From Bradyrhizobium sp. CCGUVB1N3 (GTDB lineage: Bacteria > Pseudomonadota > Alphaproteobacteria > Rhizobiales > Xanthobacteraceae): DNA of 64,000 nucleotides. Positions 6,080 through 21,619 of the stretch are shown here, piece by piece. The translations under genes and the position numbers were made by a program. Location of the stretch: contig NZ_JANADR010000001.1 of the NCBI RefSeq assembly GCF_024199925.1, positions 62,001 through 126,000 of the forward strand, in the 5' to 3' direction. Numbering within the stretch: the stretch's first letter is position 1; every line of letters begins with the position of its first letter. Under the pieces are notes generated by a model. The model made no database searches and was not told where the DNA came from. It saw nothing but the letters and a program-made list of their open reading frames with translations.

Positions 6080-6772
6080 CTACAACATCGGCTCGAACTG
6101 ACAGTGGACGAGCAGCTCTGAGACCGAGGCGTTGTTGGGCAGCATGAGGGCGGTCTCGACCAGTTGCGCGATGTCGCCGGGCTGACTCATCTCGTGGCGG
6201 GGAATTTCGTCATCTTTAATCGTCATGTCGGTGGCGACATAGCCGGGGCATATGACGGTCGCCCGGATTCCTGCAGCGCGACCCTCACGGCGGATGCCAT
6301 GCGTGAGTGCAACCACGGCGAATTTGGTCATGGCGTAGCCGACATTGCTTCCCACGCGCTTGCCGGAAAGCGACCCGAGATTGACCACTCGCCCATGGCC
6401 ACATACTGCCAGATGAGGCAGGGCGGCCCTGATGACACGCAGCGGGCCTTTGACGTTGATCCGCCACATGTCTTCCAATTCGTCTTCGCCTTCGTCGGAT
6501 ACGCGGACCTTCGGATTGATGCCGGCTGCGTTGACGATCGCGTCCACGCCGCCCCAGCGCGCGAGCGTCGCCTTGACCCATGCTTTGGGACTCTCGGCAT
6601 CGTCAGCATCGTAGCGGTGCGTCATGAGCCGCTGGCTCTCCTGGAGGGCACTCGGGTTACGAACTCCCGCCGAGACACGGAAACCCGATGCCAGCAGTCG
6701 ATCGACGACGGCGCGTCCGATGCCGCGCGAGGCGCCCGAGACCATGACGACCCGGTTGTTGACCTCCAGCAT
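6080..6772 (-). CDS. SDR-family oxidoreductase
   Basis: A 230-residue classical short-chain dehydrogenase/reductase, NAD(P)-dependent and cytosolic. Visible motifs are the nucleotide-binding VSGASRGIGRA near the N-terminus, NAAG (IVNAAGINPK), the catalytic Ser region (VNLGSLSGKR) and YAMTK, the catalytic Tyr-x3-Lys. The ATG at 6772 is chosen because GGAGAG lies just upstream; the reading frame extends further upstream but that part is not SDR-like. It is divergent from the SDR gene starting at 7011, with 238 bases between them. The substrate is unknown. Confidence 0.88.
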   Translation of the reverse strand: MLEVNNRVVMVSGASRGIGRAVVDRLLASGFRVSAGVRNPSALQESQRLMTHRYDADDAESPKAWVKATLARWGGVDAIVNAAGINPKVRVSDEGEDELEDMWRINVKGPLRVIRAALPHLAVCGHGRVVNLGSLSGKRVGSNVGYAMTKFAVVALTHGIRREGRAAGIRATVICPGYVATDMTIKDDEIPRHEMSQPGDIAQLVETALMLPNNASVSELLVHCQFEPML

Positions 6773-6962
6773 GTACGTTTCTCTCCAAGGGTGAACCAAA
6801 AACGGCCGGAGCGAATGTAGGGGGACGTGGCCGAAAGCGAGTAAGAGCGATTCACTCTGCCGGTATCGGTGATGCTTATGGGACCGCGGGGCGGGGCCGG
6901 CGGAGCTATCGGCCATGCTTATGAGGGCAGATCGAATCCGTTCTATCCGCGTCCATTTATGT

Positions 6963-7010: not shown

Positions 7011-7805
7011 ATGGGATTTGCGGATTTTCGAACGGCATTGGTAACGGGTGCGTCCTCGGGAATCGGGGCTGCGACGGTCCGCCGCCTCTGCGCGGAGGGC
7101 CTTGAGGTTTATGCGGTTGCTCGGGACGAGGGACGACTGGCGGCCTTGTCGGCGGAGACCGGGTGCCGCGCCTGTGCGGTTGACGTGAACGATCTGGGCG
7201 CGCTGACGCAACTGGCGGGCTCGGCCGAGTTCGACGTGCTCGTCAACAACGCCGGCCAGTCCCGGCGCAGCAATATTCTGGATACCGCCCCTGATGACGT
7301 CGATACGCTCGTGGACGTGAATTTGCGGGCGGTCCTGCATCTCACGCGAGTGATCGTGCCAGGCATGGCCAAACGTGACCGCGGCCACGTCGTCAACATC
7401 TCCTCCATCGCCGGCCACTATGCATTCGGCGAGAACGCAACGACGTTCAATTCCTCGGTCGCCTATCACGCGACCAAGGCGGGCATCCATTCGCTGTCGC
7501 GGCAGCTGCGCGTCGATCTCTTCGGCACCCGGGTCCGCGTCACCGAGGTGTCGCCGGGTCGGGTCGCGACCGGCATTTTTCAGAATCCGGACGTCGGCGG
7601 CGGCGGCAATGACCGCTTTGTCGGCGCCTTCGAGACGCTTCAACCCGAGGACATTGCGGACGCAATCGCATTCGCCGTGGGATCGCCGATGCGCATGAAC
7701 GTCGCGATGCTCGAGGTCATTCCAATATTTCAGGTCGTGGGTGACCTGCGATTTGCGCGTCGAACAGAGGCTGCGCAACAGACAGAGATCAAGAAACGGA
7801 GCTGA
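7011..7805 (+). CDS. SDR-family oxidoreductase, copy 1
   Basis: A 264-residue short-chain dehydrogenase with VTGASSGIGAATV (cofactor loop), NNAGQSRR, VVNISSIAGHY (Ser region) and YHATKAG (Tyr-x3-Lys). It is clearly paralogous to the SDR at 19744-20502: the N-terminal 150 residues are close to collinear, including AALSAETGC and VIVPGMAKRDRGHVVNI. This copy carries a short insertion before the catalytic Tyr (ENATTFNSSVAYHATK). ATG 7011 gives the N-terminus matching the paralogue (MGFADFRTALVTG). The stop is two bases before the aminotransferase start, so it heads an operon that continues through the ABC importer and pxp genes. Confidence 0.9.
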   Translation: MGFADFRTALVTGASSGIGAATVRRLCAEGLEVYAVARDEGRLAALSAETGCRACAVDVNDLGALTQLAGSAEFDVLVNNAGQSRRSNILDTAPDDVDTLVDVNLRAVLHLTRVIVPGMAKRDRGHVVNISSIAGHYAFGENATTFNSSVAYHATKAGIHSLSRQLRVDLFGTRVRVTEVSPGRVATGIFQNPDVGGGGNDRFVGAFETLQPEDIADAIAFAVGSPMRMNVAMLEVIPIFQVVGDLRFARRTEAAQQTEIKKRS

Positions 7806-7807
7806 CG

Positions 7808-9010
7808 ATGCCTGAACTTGCGAACCGCCTCAAAACCGTAAAAGTGTCCGCCTCGGCGGCGATGACGGACAAGGCGCGTGAGCTGCGCGATGCAGGCGTC
7901 AAGATCGTCAGCCTGTCGTCCGGCGAGCCTGATTTCCCGACGCCTCCGCATGCCATCGATGCCGCGCATCGGGCGGCGCTGGCGGGAGACACCAAATATC
8001 CGGCGATGCCCGGGACAGTGGCCCTGAGAACCGCGGTCCAGCGCAAGTTCAAGCGTGAGAACAATCTCGAATATGCCCTTGATGAAATCCTGATCGCCAA
8101 CGGGGGCAAGCAGATCATCTTCAACGCGCTGTTCGCCACCTGCAATCCCGGCGACGAGGTGGTCATTCCGGCGCCGGGCTGGATCACCTACGCGGACATC
8201 GTTCTCCTCGCCGAAGCGACGCCGGTTTCGGTGCCGTGCCCGGAGAACAACCAGTTCAAGCTTCGGCCGGCGGATCTCGAGGCTGCGATCACGCCACAGA
8301 CCAAGTGGCTGATCCTGAATTTCCCGAACAACCCGACTGGCGCCGCCTGCTCGCGCGCCGAGATGCGCGCGATCGCAGACGTCATGCTGAAGCATCCTGA
8401 TGTCTGGATCCTCACCGACGACATCTATGAACACCTCACCTATGACGGCTTCGAGTTCTGCACGATCGCGGAGGTGGAGCCGAGGCTGAAGGATCGCGTC
8501 GTAACGGTAAACGGTGCTTCCAAGGCCTACGCCATGACGGGATGGCGCGTCGGCTATTGCGGTGGCCCCAAAAGCTTGATTGCCGCCATGAACAACGTTC
8601 ACGGTCAGGCGACGGGCGGCATCTGCACGCTGAGCCAGGCGGCCGCCGTGGCGGTTCTGGATGGTCCTCAGGACTATCTGAAAGAGCGGGCCGATATCTA
8701 TCGCGACAGGCGCGATCTGGTGGTCTCGCTCCTCAGTCAGATCCCCGGGATCACCTGCCACAAGCCGCAGGGCGCATTCTACGTGTTCCCGAACATCGCC
8801 GGTTGCATTGGCAAGACGTCCAAGGGAGGACGGCGGCTGGACACCGACGCCGACTTCATTTCGGCTCTTCTGGAAGAGCAGTACGTCGCCGCTGTTCATG
8901 GCGGCGCTTATGGAATGAGCCCGTATTTCCGGATCTCCTACGCGACCGATATCGAGACACTGAAGGAGGGCTGCCGGCGCATCGCGAGCTTCTGCGAAGG
9001 CTTGCGTTGA
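7808..9010 (+). CDS. Class I/II PLP-dependent aminotransferase (AspC-like)
   Basis: A 400-residue fold-type I aminotransferase. The N-terminal part has the substrate loop SLSSGEPDFPTPPH, followed by NGGKQIIFNALF (PLP phosphate region), LNFPNNPTGA and DDIYEHLTYDG. The Schiff-base lysine is Lys239 in NGASKAYAMTGWRVGY, and the C-terminal FRISYAT carries the carboxylate-binding Arg. Motifs match the aspartate/prephenate aminotransferase group common in alphaproteobacteria. It starts two bases after the SDR stop, so an imported amino compound may be transaminated and reduced in the same pathway. The substrate cannot be read from sequence. Confidence 0.9.
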   Translation: MPELANRLKTVKVSASAAMTDKARELRDAGVKIVSLSSGEPDFPTPPHAIDAAHRAALAGDTKYPAMPGTVALRTAVQRKFKRENNLEYALDEILIANGGKQIIFNALFATCNPGDEVVIPAPGWITYADIVLLAEATPVSVPCPENNQFKLRPADLEAAITPQTKWLILNFPNNPTGAACSRAEMRAIADVMLKHPDVWILTDDIYEHLTYDGFEFCTIAEVEPRLKDRVVTVNGASKAYAMTGWRVGYCGGPKSLIAAMNNVHGQATGGICTLSQAAAVAVLDGPQDYLKERADIYRDRRDLVVSLLSQIPGITCHKPQGAFYVFPNIAGCIGKTSKGGRRLDTDADFISALLEEQYVAAVHGGAYGMSPYFRISYATDIETLKEGCRRIASFCEGLR

Positions 9011-9133
9011 GGGAAGGTATGGAAGAGCCGGCCCGGTGACCGAAGTTCAGGCACAGGATGCCACACCCATTGTCATAACCGTTTGCAATGCCCCTAAACG
9101 GAGACAATCTTGGCCCTGAAGGGTTCCCGTGTC

Positions 9134-9146
9134 TAAGCTTTGCTTA
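9134..9146. promoter_or_regulatory. TAAGC-N3-GCTTA dyad upstream of the ABC importer genes
   Basis: TAAGC-TTT-GCTTA is a perfect 5+5 inverted repeat in the 180-base gap between the aminotransferase and permease genes, 45 bases before the ATG at 9191. The gap suggests an internal promoter, and the dyad is a candidate operator. I see no clear -35/-10 pair. Confidence 0.3.
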
Positions 9147-9190
9147 AAGAGGGGTAGATCTTGGGATCGCGCAGTCGGGGACGGCCAGCA

Positions 9191-10114
9191 ATGACCAGCG
9201 ACGATGCGGTGGCTGTTGTAGGTGCCCCACCGGAGACCCGACAGGGATCGCGGTGGCGCCTGAACTTGCCCGCCGGGCTGCTCGCGCTCCCGATGCTGGC
9301 CTTCCTGGCCTATTTCTTCTTCTATCCGGCAATAAGGCTGCTGTTCTCGAGTATTCAAACCCAGAACAGCCAGGGCATTATCGGGCCTCCTTTCACGCTC
9401 GCGCACTACGCAAGGCTCATTGATGTCGAGCTCTATGCGCGCGTGTTCTGGACGACGCTGAGGATCAGCCTGATCACGTCGGCCCTTGCGACGTTATTGG
9501 CCTATCCGGTTGCGCTGGTCATGGTGAAGAGCCGCCCCCTCGTTACGCGGATTATCACGCTCATCGTCATCGCGCCGCTGGTCGTCAGCGTCGTCGTGCG
9601 TGGCTACGGGTGGCAGTTGATCCTGGCGAACGGCCCGAAGGGGATGTTGAACTGGATCCTGATGACGCTGCACATCGTCGATGGGCCGGTATCGGTCCTC
9701 TATACCGAGAAGGCCGTGGTCATCGGCTCGCTGCATGTGTTCTTTCCGATGATGGTCCTGCCGCTGGCATCCGCGCTCGGCAAGATCGATCGCAATCTGG
9801 AGGATGCGGCCCGCGTTCTCGGCGCGCCGTGGTGGAAAGTCTTCCTGCGGGTGACGCTGCCGTTGAGCATGCCCGGTTTCGTGGCGGGTTTCACCCTGGT
9901 GTTCTCGCTGACGGCCGGTTCCTTCGTCATCCCCGCCATCCTGGGAGGGGCCTCCGCGATCATGCTGGGCAATCTGATCGAGCAGCAGATTTTCGTCGTG
10001 TACGACTGGCCGTTCGGCGCCGCGATCGCCGTGGTCCTGGTCGGCGTTGTCTTCGCGGTCAATGGTTTCTCGATGTGGCTTCTCGAGGGCCGCCGTCTCC
10101 GGAGGCCGAGCTGA
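9191..10114 (+). CDS. ABC transporter permease, polyamine-type (PotB-like)
   Basis: A 307-residue inner-membrane permease with about six hydrophobic segments, the first at LLALPMLAFLAYFFFYPAI. The EAA loop that contacts the ATPase reads LEDAARVLGAPWWKVFLRVTLPLSMPG. The N-terminal tail is cytoplasmic. The system order permease-permease-binding protein-ATPase and the PotD-like binding protein place it in the spermidine/putrescine-type family, which also imports opine-like and other amino compounds. ATG 9191 is preferred; an in-frame TTG at 9161 would add ten Arg/Gly-rich residues. It overlaps the next permease gene by one base (TGATG). Confidence 0.9.
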   Translation: MTSDDAVAVVGAPPETRQGSRWRLNLPAGLLALPMLAFLAYFFFYPAIRLLFSSIQTQNSQGIIGPPFTLAHYARLIDVELYARVFWTTLRISLITSALATLLAYPVALVMVKSRPLVTRIITLIVIAPLVVSVVVRGYGWQLILANGPKGMLNWILMTLHIVDGPVSVLYTEKAVVIGSLHVFFPMMVLPLASALGKIDRNLEDAARVLGAPWWKVFLRVTLPLSMPGFVAGFTLVFSLTAGSFVIPAILGGASAIMLGNLIEQQIFVVYDWPFGAAIAVVLVGVVFAVNGFSMWLLEGRRLRRPS

Positions 10115-10917
10115 TGGACGAGCACTTTTCCGGATTTGGCGCATATGTGCTCTACGCGATCACGACCGCGATGATGATCTTCATCATGGCGCCGCTGCTT
10201 CTCGTCATGGCGGTGTCGGTTTCCGACTCCTACTTCGTGACGTTTCCGCCCCAGGGTTTTACGCTCAAATGGTATTTCAAGGTCCTCGGGGATCGTGACT
10301 TCCTGGAAGCGATGCGGCTGAGCATCCTGCTCGCGCTCGGCACGACGGCGGGCTCGCTGCTGCTCGGTGTGCCGGCGTCGTTTGCGCTGGTGCGCGGAAA
10401 TTTCTTTGGCCTGGCGGCCATCAAGGGCTTCCTGCTTTCGCCATTGATTTTCCCCGCCCTGGTGACCGGCCTTGCGCTGCTCCAGGTCCTCACCAAGCTC
10501 GGCTCGCAGGATGCGAGGCTGAACCTGTTGATCGGGCACATTGTCGTAACCTCGCCGTATGTCATCCGGACGGTGGTCACCAGCCTGCAGCTGGTGGACG
10601 AGAACCTGGAGGATGCCGCTCGTACGCTGGGAGCGAACCGGCTGTGGACCTTCTGGCGTGTGACGCTGCCGCAGATCGCATCCGGGGTTGCCGCCGGCGG
10701 ACTGTTCGCCTTCATGGTGTCCTTTGACAATTATCCGGTCACGATGTGGCTCGCCAATTCCGAGTACTCGCCGGTGCCGCTCGTGCTGATGCGGCAACTC
10801 GTCAACGTGTTTGATCCTTCCGTGCCCGCGATGTCGACGATCATCATCCTGATGGCGATGGTCGGCGTCCTGCTTCTGGAAAAGTTGGTAGGCCTTCGCC
10901 GCGCGTTGGCTGCCTGA
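10114..10917 (+). CDS. ABC transporter permease, polyamine-type (PotC-like)
   Basis: A 267-residue permease with about six membrane spans (for example AITTAMMIFIMAPLLLVMAV). Its EAA loop, LEDAARTLGANRLWTFWRVTLPQI, is the contact to the ATPase coupling site. The start ATG overlaps the stop of the first permease (TGATG), so the two subunits are made together. It should form the heterodimeric channel with the 9191 gene, driven by the ATPase at 12021. Confidence 0.9.
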   Translation: MDEHFSGFGAYVLYAITTAMMIFIMAPLLLVMAVSVSDSYFVTFPPQGFTLKWYFKVLGDRDFLEAMRLSILLALGTTAGSLLLGVPASFALVRGNFFGLAAIKGFLLSPLIFPALVTGLALLQVLTKLGSQDARLNLLIGHIVVTSPYVIRTVVTSLQLVDENLEDAARTLGANRLWTFWRVTLPQIASGVAAGGLFAFMVSFDNYPVTMWLANSEYSPVPLVLMRQLVNVFDPSVPAMSTIIILMAMVGVLLLEKLVGLRRALAA

Positions 10918-10944
10918 TTTTACTTCGTAGATGGAGATTGAACC

Positions 10945-12009
10945 ATGAGACTGACGCGTAGGACTCTCATCAAGGCCGGTGCATCCGCGGTTGCTTTCCC
11001 GACGATCATTAGCCGGGCGTGGTCACAGGACGCCAAGCAGCTTCATGTCGGCGTCTACAACTCCGCTCTGGGCAAGCTGATCCAGAAGGAGGTCATTCCC
11101 AAGTTCGAGGCCGAGTTCAAGTGTCGCGTCTTTACGATTGAAGGAGCGACGCTCTCCAACATTGCCGCACTCCGCGCGACGCGCGATACGCCACGATACA
11201 GCGTCATGATGATGGATGACGTCGGCATCCCGCAGGCGAAGCAGGAGGGTTTGATCGACAAACTCGATCCCGCCAAGATTCCCAATCTCGGGAAGGTGTA
11301 TCCGCGCTACATCTTCGAGGACGGCTACGGCGTCGGGTTCTCGATCTCGAGTGCGGCGCTGTTCATCAACCCGCAGGTGACGAAACCGATCGAGAGCTAC
11401 GAACAGATCTTTGATGCGAAGTATCGCAAGCAAATTCTCCTGAATACGCCGAAGAACACCCAGAGCGTGCTGATGCTCATCGCCGCGACGTCGCTCGTGA
11501 CGGGCAAGCCGTTCAAGGAGGCCCAGTACCTGGTCGACCAGGGTTGGGACAAGCTGGCGACGCTCAAGCCGAACGTGCTGACGATCTATGACAGCGAGGC
11601 GCAGGTTCTCCAGGTTGCCCAGGGGCAGGCGACGATCGGTGGCATCGAGTACTCGAAAGCCATTTACCCGCACACGGCGAAGGGCATGCCGCTCGACATG
11701 ACGTTCCCCAAGGAGGGTGCGTTCACGGGCATCAACAGCATGACGGTGGTCAAGAATGCGCCCGAACCGGAATTGGGAGCCGCACTCATCAACCGCATTC
11801 TCGAGCCGTCGGTTGCCAAGATGCTCTCCGAGCAGACGCTGAGCGCGCCCTCGGTCAGCGGCATCGACTTCAAGCCGGAGACGGCGAAGTTCCTCGCATA
11901 TCCGGATACCAAGGCGACTGATCTCGGGCTCTTCACTCCGGATTGGAATTTCATCGTGCCGCGCCGAGGCCCCTGGCTGGAGCGCTACAACCAAGTGTTC
12001 ACAAGCTGA
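10945..12009 (+). CDS. Periplasmic solute-binding protein, PotD-like, Tat-exported
   Basis: A 354-residue extracellular binding protein. The N-terminus is a twin-arginine signal (RRTLIKAGASAVAFPTII) with a likely cleavage near SRAWSQ, so it is probably exported folded. The mature part starts LHVGVYNSALGKLI, a type seen in spermidine/putrescine-like binding proteins (family 8 group). It lies 27 bases after the second permease gene and 11 before the ATPase gene. Given the neighbouring pxp and carboxylase genes, the cargo may be an amide, lactam or amino compound rather than a polyamine. Confidence 0.9.
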   Translation: MRLTRRTLIKAGASAVAFPTIISRAWSQDAKQLHVGVYNSALGKLIQKEVIPKFEAEFKCRVFTIEGATLSNIAALRATRDTPRYSVMMMDDVGIPQAKQEGLIDKLDPAKIPNLGKVYPRYIFEDGYGVGFSISSAALFINPQVTKPIESYEQIFDAKYRKQILLNTPKNTQSVLMLIAATSLVTGKPFKEAQYLVDQGWDKLATLKPNVLTIYDSEAQVLQVAQGQATIGGIEYSKAIYPHTAKGMPLDMTFPKEGAFTGINSMTVVKNAPEPELGAALINRILEPSVAKMLSEQTLSAPSVSGIDFKPETAKFLAYPDTKATDLGLFTPDWNFIVPRRGPWLERYNQVFTS

Positions 12010-12020
12010 GGCGGGTAGCC

Positions 12021-13115
12021 ATGAGGTCCTCCGAAGTCAGGCTTGAACGCCTCAGCAAGGAGTATAACCGGACGGTCGCGGTCGATGAGGTATCTCTGAC
12101 GATCGAGCCGGGTCATATGGTTGCCCTGCTCGGTCCGAGCGGGTGCGGGAAAACGACCTGCCTTCGCATGATCGCAGGACTGATCCGCCCGACATCCGGT
12201 GATGTCCTGGTGAACAACGCCAAGATTACCGATGTGCCGGTGCATCGTCGCAACATCGGGATGCTGTTCCAGAACTACGCGTTGTTTCCGCACATGACGA
12301 TCGAGGAGAACATCGCATTCGGCCTGCAGATGCGCGGCATCGGCAAGGCGGAGGCCGCCAAGAAGGTCGCCGCGGCGTTGAGCCTCGTCCAGCTTTCGAA
12401 CTTCGGGAAGCGATATCCTGCCCAGCTCTCGGGTGGCCAGCAGCAGCGCGTCGCGCTGGGACGGGCGCTGGTGATCGAGCCTGCGATGCTGCTGCTCGAT
12501 GAGCCGTTGGGTGCGCTCGACAAGGGGCTTCGCGAAAGCATGCAGGTCGAATTGCGAGCCCTCCAACGGCGACTGGGCCTGACCACCATCATGGTCACGC
12601 ACGACCAGGATGAGGCTCTGACGATGGCCGACAAAATCGTGGTGATGCGGGACGGCAAGCTCGAGCAGGTCGGCTCGGCGACCGAGATCTATCAGCGGCC
12701 GGCCTCTAAATTCGTTGCAAAGTTCATCGGTGCCTCCAACCTGTTCGAGGGCAAGGTCGAGCAGCGCAATGGTGACGGCGCGATCATTCGCGTGTCGCAG
12801 GATCTGAGGCTCCAGGTCGATCAGGTGCCGGCTTCTGCGGCGGACGTGATGGTCTCGATCAGGCCGGAAGCAATCATCGTCGAGGGAGCCGACCAAGACG
12901 GCGCGGTGGATCGGCCCAACAGTGTGGCCGCGCGGATCGATCAGGTCGTCTACCGTGGCTTCGTCAGTCACTATTATCTAAGGACGACGAGCGGCGAGCA
13001 ACTGATTGTGTTCGAGCAAAACCAAACGCAGCAATCGGAGCTCCGCTACGCGGTGGGCCAGCAGGTCGTTGCGCGATGGAACGCACCGAGCAATCACGTG
13101 ATTGCGCGGCATTGA
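12021..13115 (+). CDS. ABC transporter ATP-binding protein, PotA-like
   Basis: A 364-residue ATPase. The nucleotide-binding domain has Walker A GPSGCGKTT, the Q-loop LFQNYALFPHM, signature LSGGQQQR, Walker B MLLLDEP and the H-loop TIMVTHDQDEA. A C-terminal TOBE-type domain (from about residue 270, ATEIYQRPASKFVAKFIG onward) is typical of PotA/MalK/UgpC. It powers the permease pair immediately upstream. ATG 12021 follows the binding-protein stop by 11 bases. Confidence 0.93.
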   Translation: MRSSEVRLERLSKEYNRTVAVDEVSLTIEPGHMVALLGPSGCGKTTCLRMIAGLIRPTSGDVLVNNAKITDVPVHRRNIGMLFQNYALFPHMTIEENIAFGLQMRGIGKAEAAKKVAAALSLVQLSNFGKRYPAQLSGGQQQRVALGRALVIEPAMLLLDEPLGALDKGLRESMQVELRALQRRLGLTTIMVTHDQDEALTMADKIVVMRDGKLEQVGSATEIYQRPASKFVAKFIGASNLFEGKVEQRNGDGAIIRVSQDLRLQVDQVPASAADVMVSIRPEAIIVEGADQDGAVDRPNSVAARIDQVVYRGFVSHYYLRTTSGEQLIVFEQNQTQQSELRYAVGQQVVARWNAPSNHVIARH

Positions 13116-13329
13116 GAGTCGGGGTCGTAAGCCCGAGGACAGTCGGACGGGATAGCGAAGCGCAACTCATGCGCCCGCTGGCGCACGTCGCGGTGCGGCG
13201 GCAGGACATCTCGCCAGCAATCAATATCCCCTATACCCGCAGAGCGACAACGTGTTGGTTCGGCTCGCGCAGGTCATCTAGATTGGGTGTAGCGGCCACA
13301 GCGCCGCGCGTCGATCTCCGGAGCGCTGT

Positions 13330-14025
13330 TTGTCGATCACCCATCGTGTCTCTCCCTTCGTCGGCGTGCTCGAGAAGGATCCAAAGATCAGCCTGATCGG
13401 CACGCTCGCCATGTTGGTGGAGGCGCCGGGGGAGTTCGACCTCGTTCAACAGGGGCGCGTCTGGTCGCTTGCCGACGTGCTTTCGTCCTGGCCCAATGTC
13501 GAAGAGGCCGTTGTGGGCGTGACCAACGTCATGCTCACTTTCGTGCAGCCGCCGGACGACATCGGCGCGCTTGCGGTCGACATCATCGAACTGTGGCATC
13601 GTTTGAGCCCGCGCAGTCCCAATGGCAAGCTGATCGAGATTCCCGTTGTTTACGGCGGCGAGCTTGGCTTCGATCTGCCGGCTGTCGTGGCTCGCTCGGG
13701 GCTGTCGGCGCGGGAAGTGATCAGGATCCACAGTGAGGGCGAATATACCGTCTGTGCGATCGCAAGCTCCCCTGGCTTCGGCTATCTCCATGGCCTCGAT
13801 CCTCGGATATTCATGCCGCGCAAGTCGGTGCCGTCGCTCAACATGCGTGCAGGTTCAGTCACGATCGGCGGCATGCAGACCGGTGTGGCGGTGCTCACGA
13901 GCCCGAACGGCTGGAACGCAATCGGCCGGGCCGAGATGACGATGTTCGATCCCCGCAAGACGCAGCCGTCGCTGATGGCACCTGGCGATCGCGTCAAGTT
14001 CAGAATCGATCGGATCGAACTGTGA
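13330..14025 (+). CDS. pxpB: PxpB-like protein (5-oxoprolinase subunit B / AHS1 / KipI family), copy 1
   Basis: A 231-residue AHS1 (KipI) family protein. With PxpC it resembles the carboxyltransferase half of urea carboxylase and acts with PxpA in ATP-dependent cleavage of 5-oxoproline in other bacteria. Seen here are VTNVMLTF, VYGGELGFDLPAV, SSPGFGYLHGLD, MPRKSVPS and GSVTIGGMQTGV, which are the family blocks. The start is uncertain: TTG 13330 is used, and there is no strong ribosome-binding site. The 214 bases before it hold no other gene I can support. It overlaps pxpC by four bases. A second PxpB is encoded at 17230-17892. Confidence 0.87.
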   Translation: MSITHRVSPFVGVLEKDPKISLIGTLAMLVEAPGEFDLVQQGRVWSLADVLSSWPNVEEAVVGVTNVMLTFVQPPDDIGALAVDIIELWHRLSPRSPNGKLIEIPVVYGGELGFDLPAVVARSGLSAREVIRIHSEGEYTVCAIASSPGFGYLHGLDPRIFMPRKSVPSLNMRAGSVTIGGMQTGVAVLTSPNGWNAIGRAEMTMFDPRKTQPSLMAPGDRVKFRIDRIEL

Positions 14026-14999
14026 TCGAGATCCTGACCAGCCACGCGTTCAACACGATCCAGGACCGCGGCCGCCGTGGCGCGCGCCGCTTCGGTGTGA
14101 GCACGTCGGGCGCCATGGATCCGGTCGCTCTCGAAGCTGGCAACGCGCTTCTCGGCAACGATGGTGACGCCGCAAGCATCGAGGTGCAGACCTTTCCCTT
14201 CCGGCTGCGTTTCAAAGCTGACATCTCGTTTGCGCTCACTGGAGCCGATTGTGATGCAAGGCTGGGGCAGCGAGCCGTTCCGCCCTGGTGGTGCATGCGG
14301 GCGCGGGCAGGCGATATCCTCACGATCGGCTCGCCCAAACGTGGTGCCCGCGTCTATGTCTCGCTCGCTGGAGGCATCGACGTTCCGCCGGTGCTCGGCT
14401 CACGGAGCACGCATCTTCGCGCAGGGTTCGGCGGGTTGGATGGGCGTGCCTTGCAGTCGGGTGACGTCGTGCCGGTTGGGAATCCGCAACGCGAATCCCC
14501 GGGCCGCATCGAGTTTGGTGCCGAGCCACCCGAGATCGCGATCGCGGAGTCCGATCCGGCGGAGGAACGCGTTCTGCGGGTGCGCGTCATCCGTGCCGGA
14601 GAGTACGATCTGTTTTCCGAGGAGATGCAGGGTACGTTCTGGTCGACAAGATGGAAGATCAGCGCGCAGAGCGATCGGGGTGGATATCGGCTTGGCGGAG
14701 CCAACCTGACATTGGCTGCGCCGGTCGAGATGCGGTCACACGGCGTAGTGGCAGGCGTCGTGCAGGTGCCGCCCTCCGGTGAGCCGATCATTCAGATGAG
14801 CGATGCGAATACGGCTGGCGGCTACCCGAAGATGGCCGCCGTGATCCAGGCCGATCTCTGGCGCTTGGGCCAGGCGCGGCCGGGATCATTCATCACCTTC
14901 AGCGAGGTCAGCTATCGGGATGCCGTAGCGGCTATGGCTCCCGTCAGCGACTACATCGGCAGGGTACGCGCGACCGCCGATCTTTATCGAACGCTCTGA
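14022..14999 (+). CDS. pxpC: PxpC-like protein (5-oxoprolinase subunit C / AHS2 / KipA family), copy 1
   Basis: A 325-residue AHS2 family protein starting with GTG inside the PxpB stop (GTGA overlap). Family blocks are IQDRGRRGARRFGVSTSGAMD, ADCDARL, PPWWCMRARAGD, SLAGGIDVPPVLGSRST and the C-terminal QMSDANTAGGYPKMA. The PxpB-PxpC complex resembles the carboxyltransferase domain of urea carboxylase. It is paralogous to the PxpC at 16250-17233, which shares the PPWW and GGIDVPxVLGSRST blocks. Its partner is presumably the adjacent PxpB, but cross-pairing with the other copy cannot be excluded. Confidence 0.9.
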   Translation: MIEILTSHAFNTIQDRGRRGARRFGVSTSGAMDPVALEAGNALLGNDGDAASIEVQTFPFRLRFKADISFALTGADCDARLGQRAVPPWWCMRARAGDILTIGSPKRGARVYVSLAGGIDVPPVLGSRSTHLRAGFGGLDGRALQSGDVVPVGNPQRESPGRIEFGAEPPEIAIAESDPAEERVLRVRVIRAGEYDLFSEEMQGTFWSTRWKISAQSDRGGYRLGGANLTLAAPVEMRSHGVVAGVVQVPPSGEPIIQMSDANTAGGYPKMAAVIQADLWRLGQARPGSFITFSEVSYRDAVAAMAPVSDYIGRVRATADLYRTL

Positions 15000-15038
15000 G
15001 TGGAACTGGGCAACAATCAAAAAAAGGGTGGTTCAGAC

Positions 15039-15806
15039 ATGAAAATCGGCATCAACTCGGACATGGGCGAAGGCTTCGGCAACTATCGCATTTGTGACGA
15101 CGAGGCGCTCATGGGAATCGTCTCCTCCGCCAATGTGGCGTGCGGCTTCCATGCCGGCGACCCCATCATCATGGATCGCACGGTCCGGATGGCAAAGGCC
15201 AAGGGGGTCGAGATCGGCGCGCATCCGGGTCTGCCGGACCTGCTCGGATTTGGCCGCCGCGTGATCCAGATGGATGCGGCCGAGCTCGAGAAGCATATGG
15301 TCTATCAGATCGGCGCGCTCCAGGGGATCGCGGCCAATGCCGGCCACCGCGTGACCCATGTCAGCTTCCATGCGGCGATGGGCAACATGGTGAACGCCGA
15401 TCCGGATATGGCCGCCGTCGTCGCCCGCGCAATCGCAACCATCGATCGAGACTTCATCGTGTTCTCGCAGCCCGACGCCGCGATCGTACACGCCGCCCGC
15501 AAGGTCGGCCTGCGGGTGCTGACGCTCTTTCTGGCGGATCGCGCCTACGACGAGAACGGCCATCTCGTGTCTCGCAAGCTGCCCAATTCGGTCATCACCT
15601 CGTCGGAGGCCGTGGCAGAGCGGGTTCAGAGGTTTCTGGACAGCGGCACGGTGAAGACGATCGAGGGCAAGACGATCAAGGTCGAGGCGCGCTCGATTCT
15701 CATTCACAGCGACACTCCCGGCTCCGTCGATCTGGCGGCCACGGTACGGCGCGTGGTGGAGCAGGGGGGCGGCGAGGTCGCCCCGGCGAAGGTGTTGGTC
15801 AACTAG
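15039..15806 (+). CDS. pxpA: LamB/YcsF family protein, PxpA-like
   Basis: A 255-residue LamB/YcsF family protein, a TIM-barrel-like hydrolase subunit that in PxpABC opens 5-oxoproline. It keeps the N-terminal SDMGEGFGNY, ANVACGFHAGDP and GAHPGLPDLLGFGRR. The block usually read as VKPHGALYN is VSFHAAMGN here, and the usual HGDTPGAV is HSDTPGSV, so the active-site surroundings are altered. ATG 15039 is preferred over the GTG at 15000, which touches the PxpC stop; a purine-rich AAAAAAGGGTGG lies upstream. This last gene of the plus-strand operon faces the minus-strand operon 30 bases away. The function may be an amidase or lactamase step on another substrate. Confidence 0.85.
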   Translation: MKIGINSDMGEGFGNYRICDDEALMGIVSSANVACGFHAGDPIIMDRTVRMAKAKGVEIGAHPGLPDLLGFGRRVIQMDAAELEKHMVYQIGALQGIAANAGHRVTHVSFHAAMGNMVNADPDMAAVVARAIATIDRDFIVFSQPDAAIVHAARKVGLRVLTLFLADRAYDENGHLVSRKLPNSVITSSEAVAERVQRFLDSGTVKTIEGKTIKVEARSILIHSDTPGSVDLAATVRRVVEQGGGEVAPAKVLVN

Positions 15807-15836
15807 GCGGGTTGGCTGGCCTCGCGGGGCCGTCGG

Positions 15837-16259
15837 TCAGGTCGAGCAGGCCTCGACAAGGGGGCGAATCCTGGCGATGGGCGTTCCGTAGCCGACCATC
15901 GCGCCTGTCTCGGCGAGGACAGCATCGAGGATACCCTCGGCGGGAGACAGAACCGGCGCATAGATCAGACCCACCTTGACGAGGCCGACGATCGCGCCGG
16001 CGTGGATCTGTTGGCCGGGCTCGACGAACGGCTTTGTCCGCCAGGGATGCCCGGCGAGGAAATGCCCCGCGACATCAGCCGTCGCGACGACGTGCGGATC
16101 CTGGCGAGGGCTGGATGCTGCGGCAGGCGCCGGCGAAGACGCGCCGGTCTCCACGACGAGTTTCAACGACTGGTCCTTGTCTTCGATCTCGATGGACGCG
16201 ACGCCGTATATCTCCAGGAGCCTGGCCAGGCGTTCGATGTGGGATGCATCTATCGGCAT
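15837..16259 (-). CDS. Atypical biotin-carboxyl-carrier-like protein
   Basis: A 140-residue protein with the architecture of AccB: an N-terminal helix (IERLARLLEIYGVASIEIEDKDQSLKL), a Pro/Ala-rich linker and a C-terminal biotinyl-like barrel (VEPGQQIHAGAIVGLVKVG, then SPAEGILDAVLAETGAMVGYG). The biotinylation motif, normally AMKM or AMKL, reads VKV, with the lysine kept but both methionines lost. It overlaps the PxpC gene (copy 2) by 10 bases and is last in the minus-strand operon. A canonical carrier gene (AMK motif) exists at 19244-19705. It may be a poorly modified, alternatively modified or structural carrier. Confidence 0.75.
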   Translation of the reverse strand: MPIDASHIERLARLLEIYGVASIEIEDKDQSLKLVVETGASSPAPAAASSPRQDPHVVATADVAGHFLAGHPWRTKPFVEPGQQIHAGAIVGLVKVGLIYAPVLSPAEGILDAVLAETGAMVGYGTPIARIRPLVEACST

Positions 16260-17233
16260 CTGCGAAGCTCCTCGAGAAGTCGAACGTTGGTCCTGAGCCG
16301 ATCAAGATAGGCCGAGATATCGGTCTCGGCTGCAAGCGCATCCGGATACGCAGTTTGCTCGAACCGCAGTCTGCTGCCGAGCCTTGCCTGCCCGACGCGC
16401 CAAAGATCAGCCCTGATCACGGTTGCGATTTTCGGGTAGCCGCCGGAGGTCTGCGCATCGCGCATCTGGATGATGGGCTGCCCATTGGGCGGGATCTGGA
16501 TGACGCCCGGGACGATGCCGTGCGATCGTTTTTCGATCGGTGAGGCCGGTTTTACGGCGGGACCCTGCAGGCGGTAACCGTAGCGGTTGCTCTGTGGCGT
16601 GATCTTCCAACTGCTGCGCCAGAACAGCTTCTGCGTGGCGCCGTCGAACGCATCGTATTCGCCGGCGATCACGACCCTGACCGTAATATCGTCCGCTACT
16701 GCGTTCGGCCGGGCGAGGACGATGTCGGCCGGTTCGATCCCGAGTTCCCCGATTCCCGCCGGCGGATCGGGCGCGGCGCATGGCAGCATATCCCCCGGTT
16801 GGAGAGGTCGCCCGTGAAGACCGCCGAACTCACCCCGGAACTGGGTGCTCCGTGATCCCAAGACCGCGGGAACGTCGATGCCGCCACTGACGGTCAGGTA
16901 GCATCTTGCGCCACGGGGCATCGCCTTGAGGCTGAGAGTGTCTCCGGCGCGCGCCTGCGACCGCCACCACGGCGGGATCGTTCGTCCTCCGATCTCGGCT
17001 TCGACCTCTGCGCCCGTGAGCGCAAAAGCCATATTCCGGCAGAAGCGGAGTTTGAACGGCGTCATCGGGATCTCAATGCCCGCGGCGTTCTCGTCGTTGG
17101 CCAGCAGGATGTTGCCGGCGCGCAGGGCGACGTCGTCCATCGCGCCCGAGGTGCCGACCCCGAACCGATATTGATCGAAGCGGCCGAGGTCCTGGACGCT
17201 GGTCGGGCCGAGGACTGAGAGGATCTCGATCAA
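16250..17233 (-). CDS. pxpC: PxpC-like protein (AHS2 / biotin-dependent carboxyltransferase family), copy 2
   Basis: A 327-residue AHS2 family protein. The proposed start is the TTG at 17233, whose TTGA overlaps the PxpB stop by four bases, the same geometry as the plus-strand copy. Sequence upstream of it in frame is not family-like. Conserved blocks are VQDLGRFDQYRFGVGTSGAMD, PPWWRSQARAGD, SGGIDVPAVLGSRSTQF and QMRDAQTSGGYPKIA. Because accC-like and accB-like genes are in the same operon, this copy may be the carboxyltransferase half of a split urea-carboxylase-like enzyme. The product and acceptor are unknown. Confidence 0.88.
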   Translation of the reverse strand: MIEILSVLGPTSVQDLGRFDQYRFGVGTSGAMDDVALRAGNILLANDENAAGIEIPMTPFKLRFCRNMAFALTGAEVEAEIGGRTIPPWWRSQARAGDTLSLKAMPRGARCYLTVSGGIDVPAVLGSRSTQFRGEFGGLHGRPLQPGDMLPCAAPDPPAGIGELGIEPADIVLARPNAVADDITVRVVIAGEYDAFDGATQKLFWRSSWKITPQSNRYGYRLQGPAVKPASPIEKRSHGIVPGVIQIPPNGQPIIQMRDAQTSGGYPKIATVIRADLWRVGQARLGSRLRFEQTAYPDALAAETDISAYLDRLRTNVRLLEELRRCR

Positions 17234-17892
17234 CGGATCACCCGTTCGATCTCGAAGCGGATGGTGTCGCCCGGCGCGAGCGCGGCCGGCGTCGGCCAGG
17301 ACGGATCGAAGAACGTCCAGGTCGTGTGTCCGATGGCGTGCCAGCCACTGGGGCCCGGTGAAGCAGAGACGCCGGTCTGCGATCCGCCGATGGACACTGA
17401 GCCACCGGCAGAACGCTGCAGCGGCGTCTGACGGCGCGGCATGGTTATGCGGGGGTCCATGCCGCCGAGGTAGCAATAGCCGGGATGACTTCCTAGCGCG
17501 AACACGGTGTAGCGGGGTGCGGCATGGATCGATACCACGTCATCAACAGACAGGCCGGTGTGTTCGGCAACGGCCTGGAGTGACGATCCGATCTCTCCGC
17601 CATAGGTGACTGGCAGCCTGATCTCGCGACCTCCGATCGGAAGCTCCTGCGCTTCGTCCCATCCCTCGTTGAGGGCTGTGATCAGGGAAGCCACCTCGCG
17701 GGGAGGCGTTTCGAAGGTCAGCATCAGGTTGGTGATGCCTGGGATGGCTTCGCGGATTCCCGGCCATTTCGAGGCCGCCGCGGCGAGCGCCCAGATGCGT
17801 TGCTGGTGCGGCAGGTCAAACGTGCCCGGCGCCTCGAACAGAAGAGCTGACGTGCCGAGCAGGCTGATCCGTGGTCGATCGAGAGCCCTCAT
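17230..17892 (-). CDS. pxpB: PxpB-like protein (AHS1 / KipI family), copy 2
   Basis: A 220-residue AHS1 family protein with [40 protein letters not shown] and [12 protein letters not shown]. It overlaps accC upstream by four bases and pxpC downstream by four bases, so it is translationally coupled to both. Compared with copy 1 it lacks the first 10-15 residues but keeps all central blocks. With PxpC copy 2 it would form the two-subunit equivalent of the urea carboxylase carboxyltransferase domain. Confidence 0.88.
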
Positions 17893-19244
17893 TTTGCAGC
17901 TCTCCGCTCAGCCATCCAATGCTCTAGATGATGGATGTCGTAGCCGCCCCGGCAGAACGTTGGATCGGACAGAATGGCCTGATGCAGCGGCACATTGGTC
18001 CGGACGCCCTCAGCACGCAGCTCGGATAGCGCGACGCGTGCGCGCGCCAGTGCTTCGTCGCGGGTGGCGCCGTGGGCGATGAGCTTGCCGATCAACGAGT
18101 CATAGTGACGCGGAACATTGGCGCCGGCGACGATGTGTGAGTCGACGCGGATGCCGATGCCGCCGGGAACATCCCAGCGCGTCACGGCGCCAGGCGAAGG
18201 CGCAAAGGTGACCGGGTCTTCTGCATTGATGCGAAATTCCACGGCATGACCGCTCCGCGCGATACCCGCCTGCGAGATCAGCAACGGCTCGCCGCGTGCA
18301 ATGCGGATCTGCTCCTTGACGATGTCGATGCCCGTAGTCATCTCGGTGACGGGGTGCTCGACCTGGACGCGCGTGTTCATCTCGATGAAGAAGAACTGCC
18401 CGTCTTCGTAGAGGAATTCGAAGGTGCCTGCGCCGCGGTAGCCGATCCGCCGACAGGCTTCGACACAACTCTCGCCGACCCGCTCGACGAGCGCACGGTC
18501 GATGCCGGGGGCGGGGGCCTCCTCGACGACCTTCTGGTTCCTGCGCTGGAGCGAGCAGTCGCGGTCCCCAAGCCAAAGGTGGTTGTCGTGCTGATCGCAC
18601 AGGACTTGAATTTCGATATGGCGCGGCTTTTCGAGGAACTTCTCGATGTAGACGGCGGCGTTCCTGAAGGCCTGGCTCGCTTCTGCGCGCGTCAGCGCCA
18701 GCGCGTCAGCGAGTTCATGCTCAGCGCGCACGATCCGCATGCCGCGCCCGCCACCGCCGCCTGCTGCCTTGATGATGACGGGATATCCGATCTCCCGCGC
18801 GATGGCGCGTACCTTCACCGGATCGTCGGGCAGGGCGCTGTCCGGGCCGGGCACGCAGGGAACGCCGGCCAACCGCATCGCTCTTTTGGCCGCGACCTTG
18901 TCGCCCATGGTCCGGATGCAGTCGGCCGGCGGGCCGATGAAGGTGAGGCCGGCCTGTGCAACCCTGTCGGCGAAATCAGCGCTTTCCGACAGAAATCCGT
19001 AGCCCGGATGAATCGCCTGCGCGCCGGTGGCTTCCGCGGCGAGCAGGATCGCTGCTGAATTCAGGTAGGTGCTGCTCGCCGCAGCCGGTCCGATGCAGAG
19101 CGCTTGGTCTGCGAGCGCAACGTATCGCGCGTCCCGGTCCGCCTCAGAGTGAATGACGACGGTCTTGAGGCCCATCGCCCAGCAGGCGCGCTGGATGCGA
19201 AGCGCGATCTCGCCGCGATTGGCGATCAGGACCTTGTCGAACAT
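17889..19244 (-). CDS. Biotin carboxylase (AccC-like)
   Basis: A 451-residue, full-length biotin carboxylase. The N-terminal domain is [16 protein letters not shown] with [10 protein letters not shown]. The ATP-grasp has the glycine loop [10 protein letters not shown], then [14 protein letters not shown] and [16 protein letters not shown]. The C-terminal domain follows ([18 protein letters not shown]). It carboxylates biotin on a carrier protein using ATP and bicarbonate. AccA/AccD or propionyl-CoA carboxyltransferase genes are absent; the neighbours are AHS1/AHS2 proteins, so it probably feeds that carboxyltransferase instead of making malonyl-CoA. It overlaps accB by one base and pxpB by four. 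Confidence 0.92.
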
Positions 19245-19705
19245 CAGGAGGGGCCTGCAGGTCGGATCCGGAACAGCGCCTGTCCCGCTTCGATCTCGTT
19301 ACCGTCCTCGACGAGAACGGCCACAACGACACCGGACGTCTCGGCGGTGACGTCGATGAACGTCTTCATCGCTTCGATGATGCATATTTTCTGGCCCGCT
19401 TCGATGGTGCTGCCGATCTCCACCAGCGGTGGCTCGTTTGGCGCCGCGGCTCGATAAAACACGCCATGCATCGGTGCGGGCACGACGCTCTCTTCGACGG
19501 CAGGCACGGCCGGCGAGGGGACCGGCTCATGCTTGGGAACGTCCGATCCATGCAGGGCACGAGGCGAGACGGGATTCGCCTCGCGCGGCGCCGAGCCTTT
19601 CAGGATGCGGATGCGCGTCCCATCTTGGGTCAACTCCAGCTCCGCGATGCGCGATCGCGAGACCAGATCGACCAATTGCTCGATTTTAGCGAGATCCACG
19701 GTCAT
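19244..19705 (-). CDS. Biotin carboxyl carrier protein (AccB-like)
   Basis: A 153-residue carrier. The N-terminal region ([18 protein letters not shown]) precedes a Pro-rich linker, and the C-terminal biotinyl domain has the canonical IIEAMKTF, with lysine as the biotin site. The family thumb segment is short ([18 protein letters not shown]). It is the carrier for the adjacent AccC-like carboxylase. The start lies 38 bases after the SDR stop on the same strand, so SDR, accB, accC, pxpB, pxpC and the atypical carrier appear to be one six-gene operon. Confidence 0.92.
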
Positions 19706-19743
19706 CGCCCCTGTCTAGAGTATCGATGCGCGCCTCTCGATCA

Positions 19744-20502
19744 TCAAGTCGCGGCCTGCCGATGTCTCTGCGCGAAGTTGAGGCCGCCGACGACCTGCTG
19801 AGTTGGCAGCACCTCCATGAATGCAACGTTCATGCGCGCGGGCGAGCCAATCGCGAAAGCGATCGAATTGGCGATGTCCTCGGGCTGCAGTGCGTCGTAA
19901 TCGTCGAAAAAGCGGCGCTTGGCTTCGGCAAGATCGCCCAGCAGCCGTCCGAAGACTTCCGTCTCCACGCGGGCCGGCGAAACCTCGGTCACGCGGACCC
20001 GGGTGCCATAGAGATCGACTCGCAATTGCTGCGAGAGCGAATGAATGCCCGCCTTCGTTGCGTGATACACGGTATTTCCCCCGCCGAAGGCATAATGGCC
20101 GGCTATCGACGAGATGTTGACGACATGGCCACGGTCGCGCTTCGCCATGCCGGGCACGATCAGCCGGGTCAGATGCAGGACGGCGCGCAAATTGACGTCG
20201 ATCAGGGCGTCGACGTCGTCGGGCGTGGTGTCCAGGATATTGCCACGCCGGGACTGGCCGGCATTGTTGATGAGAACGTCGAATTCGGCCGAGTTTGCCA
20301 GCGCCGTCAGCGCGTCCAGGTCGCTAACGTCAACGGTGCAGGCGTGGCAACCGGTCTCGGCCGACAGCGCCGCCAGCCGGTCCGCGTCGCGCGCCACCGC
20401 ATAGACATCCAGCCCCTCGGCGCTCAGGCGGCGAACCGTCGCAGACCCGATGCCCGAGGAGGCACCCGTCACCAGCGCCGTTCGATAGTCTGAAAATCCC
20501 AT
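19744..20502 (-). CDS. SDR-family oxidoreductase, copy 2
   Basis: A 252-residue short-chain dehydrogenase with VTGASSGIGSATV, NNAGQSRRGNI, NISSIAGHY and YHATKAG. It is the paralogue of the SDR at 7011-7805 (same MGFxDxRTALVTGASSG start and same internal blocks), but the region before the catalytic Tyr is shorter (GGGNTVYHATK). It is the first gene of the minus-strand operon and divergent from the LysR regulator. Duplicated SDRs heading both facing operons suggest both act on related intermediates. Confidence 0.92.
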   Translation of the reverse strand: MGFSDYRTALVTGASSGIGSATVRRLSAEGLDVYAVARDADRLAALSAETGCHACTVDVSDLDALTALANSAEFDVLINNAGQSRRGNILDTTPDDVDALIDVNLRAVLHLTRLIVPGMAKRDRGHVVNISSIAGHYAFGGGNTVYHATKAGIHSLSQQLRVDLYGTRVRVTEVSPARVETEVFGRLLGDLAEAKRRFFDDYDALQPEDIANSIAFAIGSPARMNVAFMEVLPTQQVVGGLNFAQRHRQAAT

Positions 20503-20557
20503 TCGTTCGGCTCCTCTGTGCAGGGTTACCTATAGGCCCGGCGGGTTCCAGGTGGTA

Positions 20558-20572
20558 AGAACATTTCGTTCT
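20558..20572. promoter_or_regulatory. AGAAC-N5-GTTCT dyad between SDR copy 2 and the LysR gene
   Basis: A perfect 5+5 inverted repeat, AGAAC-ATTTC-GTTCT, lies in the 130-base divergent gap, 55 bases upstream of the SDR start and 60 upstream of the LysR start. A LysR-type regulator divergent from its target usually binds such a dyad. The related GAAC-N5-GTTC at 6963-6975 supports, weakly, a common regulator for both operons. Confidence 0.45.
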
Positions 20573-20632
20573 AGTCCCATAGCTCCAGCGTATTGCTGCT
20601 GCCGTGATGACCTTGTTGTTGGGAACCCCGTA

Positions 20633-21619
20633 TTGGACACGCGCCGCCTCGAAGCCTTCGTCAAAGTCGTCGACCTCGGAAGCATGTCGCGTGCGGCGAA
20701 ACTGCTCAACATTGCCCAGCCGGCGCTGAGCCAGCAGATCGCCAGCCTCGAGGTCGACTTCAAGCGAAAGCTGCTGGATCGCAGCGCCCGGGGCGTCAGG
20801 CCGACCGACGCGGGTCAAATCCTCTACCGCTATGCCAAGTCGATCCAGCGGCAGATTGACGAGGCGCGGCGTACGATCTTTGAGAACCGATCGGGGCTGA
20901 CCGGCAACGTTACGATCGGCCTGGCGCCGCTCAGCTCCGCGGCATTGCTCGCGACCCCGCTGCTGATGCAGGTACGTGAACGCCATCCCGGCGTCGTGCT
21001 GCACATTTACGACAGTTCCGGGATCATGCTCAGCGAAATGGTGCTGAAGGCGAGCATGGACATCGCCGTCCTGTACGGTGATCGTCCGGTGACCGGCCTC
21101 GATTACAAGCCGCTGATGCGCGAGCACTTCTATCTGGTCGCGCCCCGCATCATGTATTCGAATCAGGTGCCTTCGGAAGAGGTTTCGGCGGCGGAGCTCG
21201 CGCAATTCGACCTGCTTCTTCCATATCGAGAATCGTTCCTGCGGCAGGCGGTCGAACGGGTCTGCGCCGAGGTGGGACTCCGCCCGCGCGTCATCGCCGA
21301 GATTCATTCGCAGTCGACCCTTTCTTCGGCGATCGCAGCTGGATTGGGTGCCGCCGTGCTACCCATGTCGATCGCAAAGGCGTTGCCGAACTTCGATGAA
21401 CTCTGCATTCGGCGGATCGATGCGGCGTCGGCGTCGCAGCAAATGTCGCTATGCATTTCCGATAACGTCGCTTTGTCCGATGCCGCATTCGCCGTTTACA
21501 AGATATTGCTCGAGATCATCGTCAAGAACTGGGGGCAGTTCGATTGCTCCTCCGGCTCGGCTGCCGTCGCTGCAGGTGGCCCAGCAGCGCCTCTGGGCGG
21601 CCCGAAGGACGAGCCATAA
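20633..21619 (+). CDS. LysR family transcriptional regulator
   Basis: A 328-residue LTTR. The N-terminal winged helix begins with the TTG at 20633 (DTRRLEAFVKVVDLGSMSRAAKLLNIAQPALSQQI). The sequence upstream in frame is not LysR-like. The effector domain follows from about residue 90 (VTIGLAPLSSAALLATPLL). The N-terminal phrase LSQQIASLE and the RRTIFE linker resemble the NAC/CysB-like group that includes nitrogen-assimilation regulators. It is divergent from SDR copy 2, so it probably controls the carboxylase operon; a candidate operator lies between them. The inducer is unknown. Confidence 0.9.
   Translation: MDTRRLEAFVKVVDLGSMSRAAKLLNIAQPALSQQIASLEVDFKRKLLDRSARGVRPTDAGQILYRYAKSIQRQIDEARRTIFENRSGLTGNVTIGLAPLSSAALLATPLLMQVRERHPGVVLHIYDSSGIMLSEMVLKASMDIAVLYGDRPVTGLDYKPLMREHFYLVAPRIMYSNQVPSEEVSAAELAQFDLLLPYRESFLRQAVERVCAEVGLRPRVIAEIHSQSTLSSAIAAGLGAAVLPMSIAKALPNFDELCIRRIDAASASQQMSLCISDNVALSDAAFAVYKILLEIIVKNWGQFDCSSGSAAVAAGGPAAPLGGPKDEP

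Follow-up and report, generated by a model that had tools for sequence, protein, structure and literature searches.

A conserved pxpABC gene module with a dedicated biotin carboxylase and a carrier protein lacking the biotinyl lysine in Bradyrhizobium

We analysed a window of 64 kb from the 10.44 Mb genome, assembled in three contigs, of Bradyrhizobium sp. CCGUVB1N3 (GCF_024199925.1, contig NZ_JANADR010000001.1, positions 62,001 to 126,000). The window carries two convergent operons, spanning positions 7011-20502, that combine genes of the PxpABC 5-oxoprolinase families with genes for a biotin carboxylase and its carrier (Table 1). The plus operon encodes, in order, a short-chain dehydrogenase/reductase (SDR), an aminotransferase, the two permeases, binding protein and ATPase of an ATP-binding cassette (ABC) importer, PxpB, PxpC and PxpA. 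The minus operon encodes an SDR, AccB, AccC, PxpB, PxpC and a protein resembling a biotin carboxyl carrier protein (BCCP), whose gene closes the operon and which we call BCCP*. SDR genes and pxpB-pxpC pairs are present twice, and pxpA, accB-accC and the BCCP-like gene once; the plus and minus copies are 73.5% (SDR), 47.6% (PxpB) and 52.5% (PxpC) identical. An earlier note on this DNA, made from its letters alone, had listed these genes, and they are confirmed as open frames in the order and on the strands it gave. The 30-base gap it described between the operons is upheld by the stop positions of pxpA (15806) and BCCP* (15837). The module is a new PxpABC variant that has its own biotin carboxylase and a carrier without the lysine; in Bradyrhizobium and Chelatococcus it also has two PxpBC pairs.

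Table 1. Genes of the two convergent operons and their neighbours, with positions in the window
Feature	Position	Strand	Basis
Third SDR	6080..6787	-	SDR family matches; divergent from plus operon
SDR, plus operon gene 1	7011..7805	+	adh_short; ATG at 7011
Class I aminotransferase, aspartate-transaminase-like	7808..9010	+	Aminotran_1_2
ABC importer permease 1	9161..10114	+	BPD_transp_1; TTG start as listed
ABC importer permease 2	10114..10917	+	Open frame, ATG at 10114; permease call by eye
ABC importer binding protein, PotD-like	10945..12009	+	SBP_bac_8
ABC importer ATPase with TOBE_2	12021..13115	+	ABC_tran, TOBE_2; ATG at 12021
pxpB, plus-type	13330..14025	+	CT_C_D, TIGR00370; TTG start as listed
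pxpC, plus-type	14022..14999	+	CT_A_B, TIGR00724; GTG start
pxpA, sole copy found in locus	15039..15806	+	LamB_YcsF, NF003814; ATG at 15039
BCCP*, BCCP-like without biotinyl lysine	15837..16259	-	
pxpC, minus-type	16250..17233	-	TIGR00724; TTG start
pxpB, minus-type	17230..17892	-	TIGR00370
accC, biotin carboxylase	17889..19244	-	TIGR00514
accB, biotin carboxyl carrier, EAMK motif	19244..19705	-	Lys present at site
SDR, minus operon gene 1	19744..20502	-	NCBIfam SDR, best YdfG-like, below cut-off
LysR regulator, NAC-like	20630..21619	+	Start by eye; divergent from minus operon
RraA/CHA-type aldolase-decarboxylase	21678..22388	+	PRK09262, 218.9 bits vs 179 cut-off
NHL-repeat-type protein	22410..23390	+	NCBIfam ScyF, 104.2 bits, below 350 cut-off

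Both PxpB copies passed the TIGR00370 cut-off of 145.55 bits (175.9 and 164.7 bits) and both PxpC copies the TIGR00724 cut-off of 230.2 (314.2 and 311 bits). PxpA scored 332.2 bits against NF003814 (cut-off 226) and AccC 654.8 bits against TIGR00514 (cut-off 626.5), while AccB, at 114.5 bits, fell slightly below the 115.2 required by the BCCP equivalog. Comparison bore out the kinship, given as known in the earlier note, between PxpBC (AHS1/AHS2) and the carboxyltransferase domain of urea carboxylase. The locus matches the UCA-type carboxyltransferase domain; its separate genes, with 37.3 to 472.1 bits each, stay below the 1303.85 bits of the single-chain urea carboxylase model TIGR02712.

Related loci were found by tblastn of plasmid records and by scanning a PxpC alignment across one genome per species (84,980 species), which gave 403 relatives, the best 80 of which were kept and yielded 74 loci. 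With five plasmid loci, 15 stretches of this and related genomes and the window, the set comprised 95 loci, at least two of which are duplicates of others (L040/L055 and L043/L124). Genes were labelled with hidden Markov models (HMMs) derived from the proteins of the window and the plasmids. The module is real and conserved. A plasmid of Bradyrhizobium sp. 62B carries, by tblastn, the same two facing operons together with a LysR and an aldolase gene, and the facing layout recurs in Bradyrhizobium in 23 of the 95 loci (22 distinct) and is therefore not a matter of chance. Two pxpC genes were present in 24 loci; the Chelatococcus locus L067 holds both gene sets in an order that differs from the facing layout. 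The commoner form elsewhere is a single operon with LysR, accB, accC, pxpB, pxpC, BCCP*, pxpA, SDR and an amino-acid ABC importer, seen in Burkholderiaceae, Variovorax, Pseudomonas, Marinomonas and other Bradyrhizobium, and so in Alpha-, Beta- and Gammaproteobacteria. Such operons often add an aminotransferase and RraA, and in many Burkholderiales also a glyoxylate-reductase-like gene. Two kinds of importer occur across the modules, one PotD-like and one of amino-acid type. The genome under study carries the module once more at 3.22 Mb (L036, C1:3212000-3231999), there as a single operon that includes a separate BCCP*. A further stretch of it (L039, C1:212000-231999) holds an accC-linked pxpABC cluster without BCCP*, beside which a hydantoinase/oxoprolinase-like gene and a branched-chain-type ABC importer were noticed by eye.

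Linkage of pxpBC to the biotin genes was examined in the same set. accC, BCCP* and pxpC occurred together in 85 of the 95 loci, and accC was accompanied by exactly one carrier of each kind, lysine-bearing and lysine-less, in 82; because the BCCP* and AccB HMMs started from six sequences without and six with the lysine, the pairing within each locus and the phylum sample described below are the better tests. pxpC stood without accC and without BCCP* in five loci (L037, L038, L086, L092 and L093). BCCP* was missing beside accC and pxpC in L039, L049 and L050 had accC and accB with no pxpC, and L104, at a contig end, had no pxpC label. L072 showed no recognised accB and a short accC, and accB was missing from L109 and L118 near a contig or locus end. 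A stretch of L047 (8986-9999) carried accB and BCCP*, yet nothing labelled accC or pxp lies within 20 kb.

In a wider sample of 70 evenly drawn Pseudomonadota genomes, this one included, the CT_A_B family was found in 18. The 25 matches outside this genome comprised nine in urea-carboxylase-type frames of more than 1000 amino acids, one contig-end fragment and 15 standalone PxpC genes, which were widened to 18 kb for gene content. Six of these 15 clusters contained accC and one contained BCCP*. In four of the six, the biotin carboxylase forms one protein with a carrier domain whose MKMET motif is intact, and three of these fusions adjoin a frame of 537-574 amino acids (measured between stops) in which PxpB and PxpC are probably joined.

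The earlier note had recognised an atypical carrier at the end of the minus operon but overlooked that its biotinyl lysine is missing. BCCP* matched the BCCP profile at 29.6 bits and Biotin_lipoyl at 26.1 bits (cut-off 22.1), and is predicted to adopt the BCCP fold. None of the 90 copies in the loci has the biotinyl lysine (0/86 and 0/4), nor does any of 240 public BCCP* proteins among the matches listed, while His71 is invariant (90/90). The median dN/dS was 0.22 (maximum 0.457; 22 loci), calculated without the first 8 codons and on frames taken from the start codon because stop-to-stop frames overlap pxpC; these values replace an earlier estimate on the overlapping frames (0.435, maximum 0.995; 14 loci, 91 pairs). 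On the basis of conservation and dN/dS we reject a pseudogene or a chance open reading frame. Lys95 of the window protein was considered as a shifted biotin site and rejected: it lies three residues ahead of the site, and among 86 copies the position is Gln in 34, Lys in only 22, Arg in 22 and another residue in 8.

A BCCP* profile run over 299 Pseudomonadota genomes, this one included, matched 219 at E<=1e-16. Matches below 90 bits that were opened (25 loci, L130-L154) proved to be ordinary AccB. At a cut of 94 bits, set after the scores had been seen, four other genomes pass, and in these four the assignment is upheld by gene context and the missing lysine. Public entries for BCCP*, where named, are mostly called acetyl-CoA carboxylase biotin carboxyl carrier protein, and no description of BCCP* in bacteria was found in our searches of open-licence PMC papers. 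By description alone it can be likened to plant BADC, which the excerpt of PMC11926652 presents as a BCCP homologue without the biotinyl lysine that is tied to assembly of biotin carboxylase (BC) with BCCP; BADC, however, belongs to plastid acetyl-CoA carboxylase, whereas BCCP* is bacterial and lies in a pxp operon.

Trees were built with FastTree, and local supports are given. Both window PxpCs fall in a BCCP*-linked clade (0.916) apart from plain PxpABC. Linkage to accC appears in three parts of the PxpC tree, namely L039/L185, the group with fused BC and carrier, and the BCCP* clade. In the last of these, three tips count as unlinked only through a distance cut, and another three belong to the L086 group. 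In the combined PxpB and PxpC tree, the minus-type pairs form a clade (0.994; L067 included, L055 omitted from the analysis) whose 23 members all lie in two-pair loci, and the plus clade widens to L005 and L099 (0.847), two loci without a minus-type pair. Module AccCs (88 of 90, after removal of two short sequences) form a clade that excludes all 26 housekeeping AccCs in the comparison (0.703, or 0.908 for 87 without L199), and a chosen subset of 31 module AccBs likewise excludes the housekeeping AccBs compared. Another accB-accC pair, which was not part of these trees, lies at 1.497 Mb of this genome, and its AccC scores 701.6 bits, above the window AccC. As the earlier note had stated, the window holds no acyl-CoA carboxyltransferase gene: accA and accD families gave no match there, and the best accD and accA matches of the genome are at 6.17 Mb and 5.94 Mb. 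These comparisons support the view that the window accB-accC is a dedicated lineage and not the acetyl-CoA carboxylase pair. Window AccC keeps 15 of the 16 landmark residues examined and has Asn at position 236; the landmark positions, including His236, are given in E. coli numbering. Among 89 AccCs placed by motif, the position of E. coli His236 was His in 50, Asn in 24 and Arg in one, with 14 misfitting the motif.

Several known systems share parts of this gene set. The PxpABC 5-oxoprolinase (YbgJKL, KipI/KipA/YcsF) has the same PxpA, PxpB and PxpC families and importer-bearing catabolic clusters but differs from the locus with its dedicated accB-accC, BCCP*, two PxpBC pairs and separate PxpC clade. 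Urea carboxylase/urea amidolyase shares BC, BCCP and the fold of the carboxyltransferase, whereas here the genes are separate, PxpA seems to take the place of allophanate hydrolase and BCCP* is extra. A six-gene operon of S. aureus, as excerpted from PMC11315280, joins accB and accC with pxpB, pxpC and pxpA, and there accBC is assigned to fatty acid synthesis. In PDB 9yx5, by its title and chain matches, the PxpBC homologues MSMEG_0435-0436 are bound to a BC/BCCP-containing M. smegmatis complex; this differs in being an acyl-CoA carboxylase with a fused AccA3 subunit, and we read it as a precedent for PxpBC bound to such a carboxylase. The caprolactamase CapAB also opens a lactam with ATP, and carboxyphosphate routes are discussed for it, but in the excerpt of PMC8453981 it is kin to eukaryotic-type oxoprolinases and not to PxpABC.

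Starting from gene content, conservation, lineage, the missing lysine and the predicted folds, all of which the sequence provides, we infer complex formation, carboxyl transfer to a lactam, a role for BCCP* and a substrate. On balance we lean towards the locus being one biotin-dependent system for opening an amide or lactam, with its importer and downstream steps and with BCCP* as a structural part. AccC would carboxylate biotin on AccB using ATP and bicarbonate, and the PxpB-PxpC heterodimer, acting like the carboxyltransferase of urea carboxylase, would transfer the carboxyl to the ring amide of a 5-oxoproline-like amino acid brought in by the importer. Transfer would most likely be to nitrogen, and the lactam thereby activated could be hydrolysed by PxpA; the resulting carbamate would lose CO2, and bicarbonate would therefore be catalytic. 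BCCP*, a putative non-biotinylated subunit, may help AccB and AccC assemble with PxpBC, as BADC does in plastid acetyl-CoA carboxylase. Both PxpBC pairs would draw on one set of AccB, AccC, BCCP* and PxpA, probably for two related substrates, and the opened amino acid would be transaminated and then cleaved by the RraA-type aldolase. The presence of an aminotransferase, a CHA-type aldolase and often a glyoxylate-reductase-like enzyme suggests that the substrate may be a hydroxylated or branched 5-oxoproline-like amino acid giving a 4-hydroxy-2-oxo acid. Idonate/gluconate-type genes were seen by eye beside some Paraburkholderia loci.

The earlier note had divided the work between the operons, taking the minus set as a split urea-carboxylase-like enzyme and the plus set as a PxpABC-like amidase. 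Put as a rival, the former would N-carboxylate a small amide or guanidine, and the latter would be an ordinary PxpABC that needs no biotin and works on this compound or on what is made from it. The homology of PxpBC to urea carboxylase favours this, as does the finding that all 23 minus-clade pairs share a locus with a plus-type pair; independent occurrence of the operons had been named in the note as counter-evidence, and of the two pair types only the plus-type occurs alone (L005 and L099), there with accBC and BCCP*. However, both PxpBC pairs sit in one accBC/BCCP*-linked clade, so that such a division is unsupported. The plus set is unlike ordinary biotin-free PxpABC because the plus-type pair is the sole one beside accB-accC-BCCP* in L005 and L099, and because its relatives share one operon with these genes in L004 and L200-L202. 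Apart from PxpA, the locus showed no hydrolase of this kind, and no allophanate-hydrolase gene was seen among the module genes examined, no family search of the genome having been made. We therefore consider the division improbable, and the interpretation in the note as a whole partly supported. Its other counter-case, in which AccB-AccC serve ordinary acetyl-CoA carboxylase, is rejected on the strength of both trees and of the accB-accC pair at 1.497 Mb. That they are spare subunits of that enzyme that landed in a pxp operon would fit the AccC score above the acetyl-CoA carboxylase equivalog cut-off, but given the separate clades, the pair elsewhere and an operon order conserved across many genera, we give it very little credence.

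Another explanation is that PxpABC works by phosphorylation without biotin and that AccB-AccC, merely co-regulated, serve another carboxylation whose carboxyltransferase gene lies elsewhere. In other bacteria, plain PxpABC is known to act on 5-oxoproline. In excerpts of the literature, PxpBC is held to phosphorylate 5-oxoproline (PMC13274462), and ATP hydrolysis is ascribed to co-purified PxpBC (PMC8453981), in neither case with a need for biotin. Several of our own results also weigh against a biotin-dependent system. Nine of the 15 standalone PxpC loci have no accC nearby, and three clusters of the same pathway type (L086, L092 and L093) keep pxpBC, pxpA, SDR, RraA and LysR, with an aminotransferase in two of the three, and show none of accB, accC and BCCP* in the stretch examined, so that either housekeeping AccBC substitutes there or biotin is dispensable. 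These three group beside L080 (0.991), which holds all three genes, and accB, accC and BCCP* therefore appear to have been lost together. (By eye, these accBC-less clusters seem to have a TRAP-type importer instead of ABC genes; L092 6277-7347, L086 5072-5671.) Both PxpCs lie below the cut-off of the 5-oxoprolinase equivalog NF045499 (296.4 and 298.4 against 500 bits), the partner of the PxpBC homologues in PDB 9yx5 is an acyl-CoA carboxylase, and a residue signature for biotin use was dropped, since only two weak positions were common to urea carboxylase and accC-linked PxpC and not plain PxpC. Against a biotin-free route stand the accC-pxpBC linkage in three tree groups, including BC-BCCP fusions beside PxpBC, the homology of PxpBC itself to a carboxyltransferase, and the binding of its homologues to a BC/BCCP complex in the same PDB entry; we judge this route unlikely. 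As for BCCP*, it might, compatibly with the biotin-dependent reading, be a regulator or inhibitor competing with AccB for AccC, or a domain handling substrate through its histidine. An inhibitor role is proposed for BADC in the excerpt of PMC11926652, and the constancy of His71 is in line with such roles, but BCCP* is present and missing together with accB and accC in the loci read, which argues, only indirectly, against them; we hold this possible, if doubtful.

Coupling of ATP to ring opening by PxpABC appears, in the literature as excerpted, to be assumed rather than shown, and the presence, in three PxpC tree groups, of clusters with a biotin carboxylase and carrier of their own offers a specific, testable answer. 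More speculatively, and with rather low confidence, PxpABC in general may be biotin-dependent, relying on dedicated or housekeeping AccB/AccC to N-carboxylate the lactam before PxpA acts, with proteobacterial BCCP* committing BC-BCCP to PxpBC and not to fatty-acid synthesis. BADC is called unique to plants in a 2025 abstract (PMC11926652), and BCCP* would be a bacterial counterpart of that subunit of the plant enzyme; many listed database entries call it a biotin carrier despite its having no biotin site. Many bacteria associated with plants and soil carry the module, which marks an uncharacterised way of using nitrogen compounds.

The two operons described in the earlier note are real, but that framing was slightly too narrow: the third SDR, the LysR regulator, the RraA/CHA-type aldolase and the NHL protein adjoin the module in many two-operon relatives. 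The LysR protein scored 300.2 bits against PRK11233 (NAC), just below the 309 cut-off. Within the plus operon, the best NCBIfam match of the aminotransferase was PRK06107 (518.8 bits, below the 617 cut-off), and the importer binding protein matched PotD at 55.6 bits, below the cut-off of 582.

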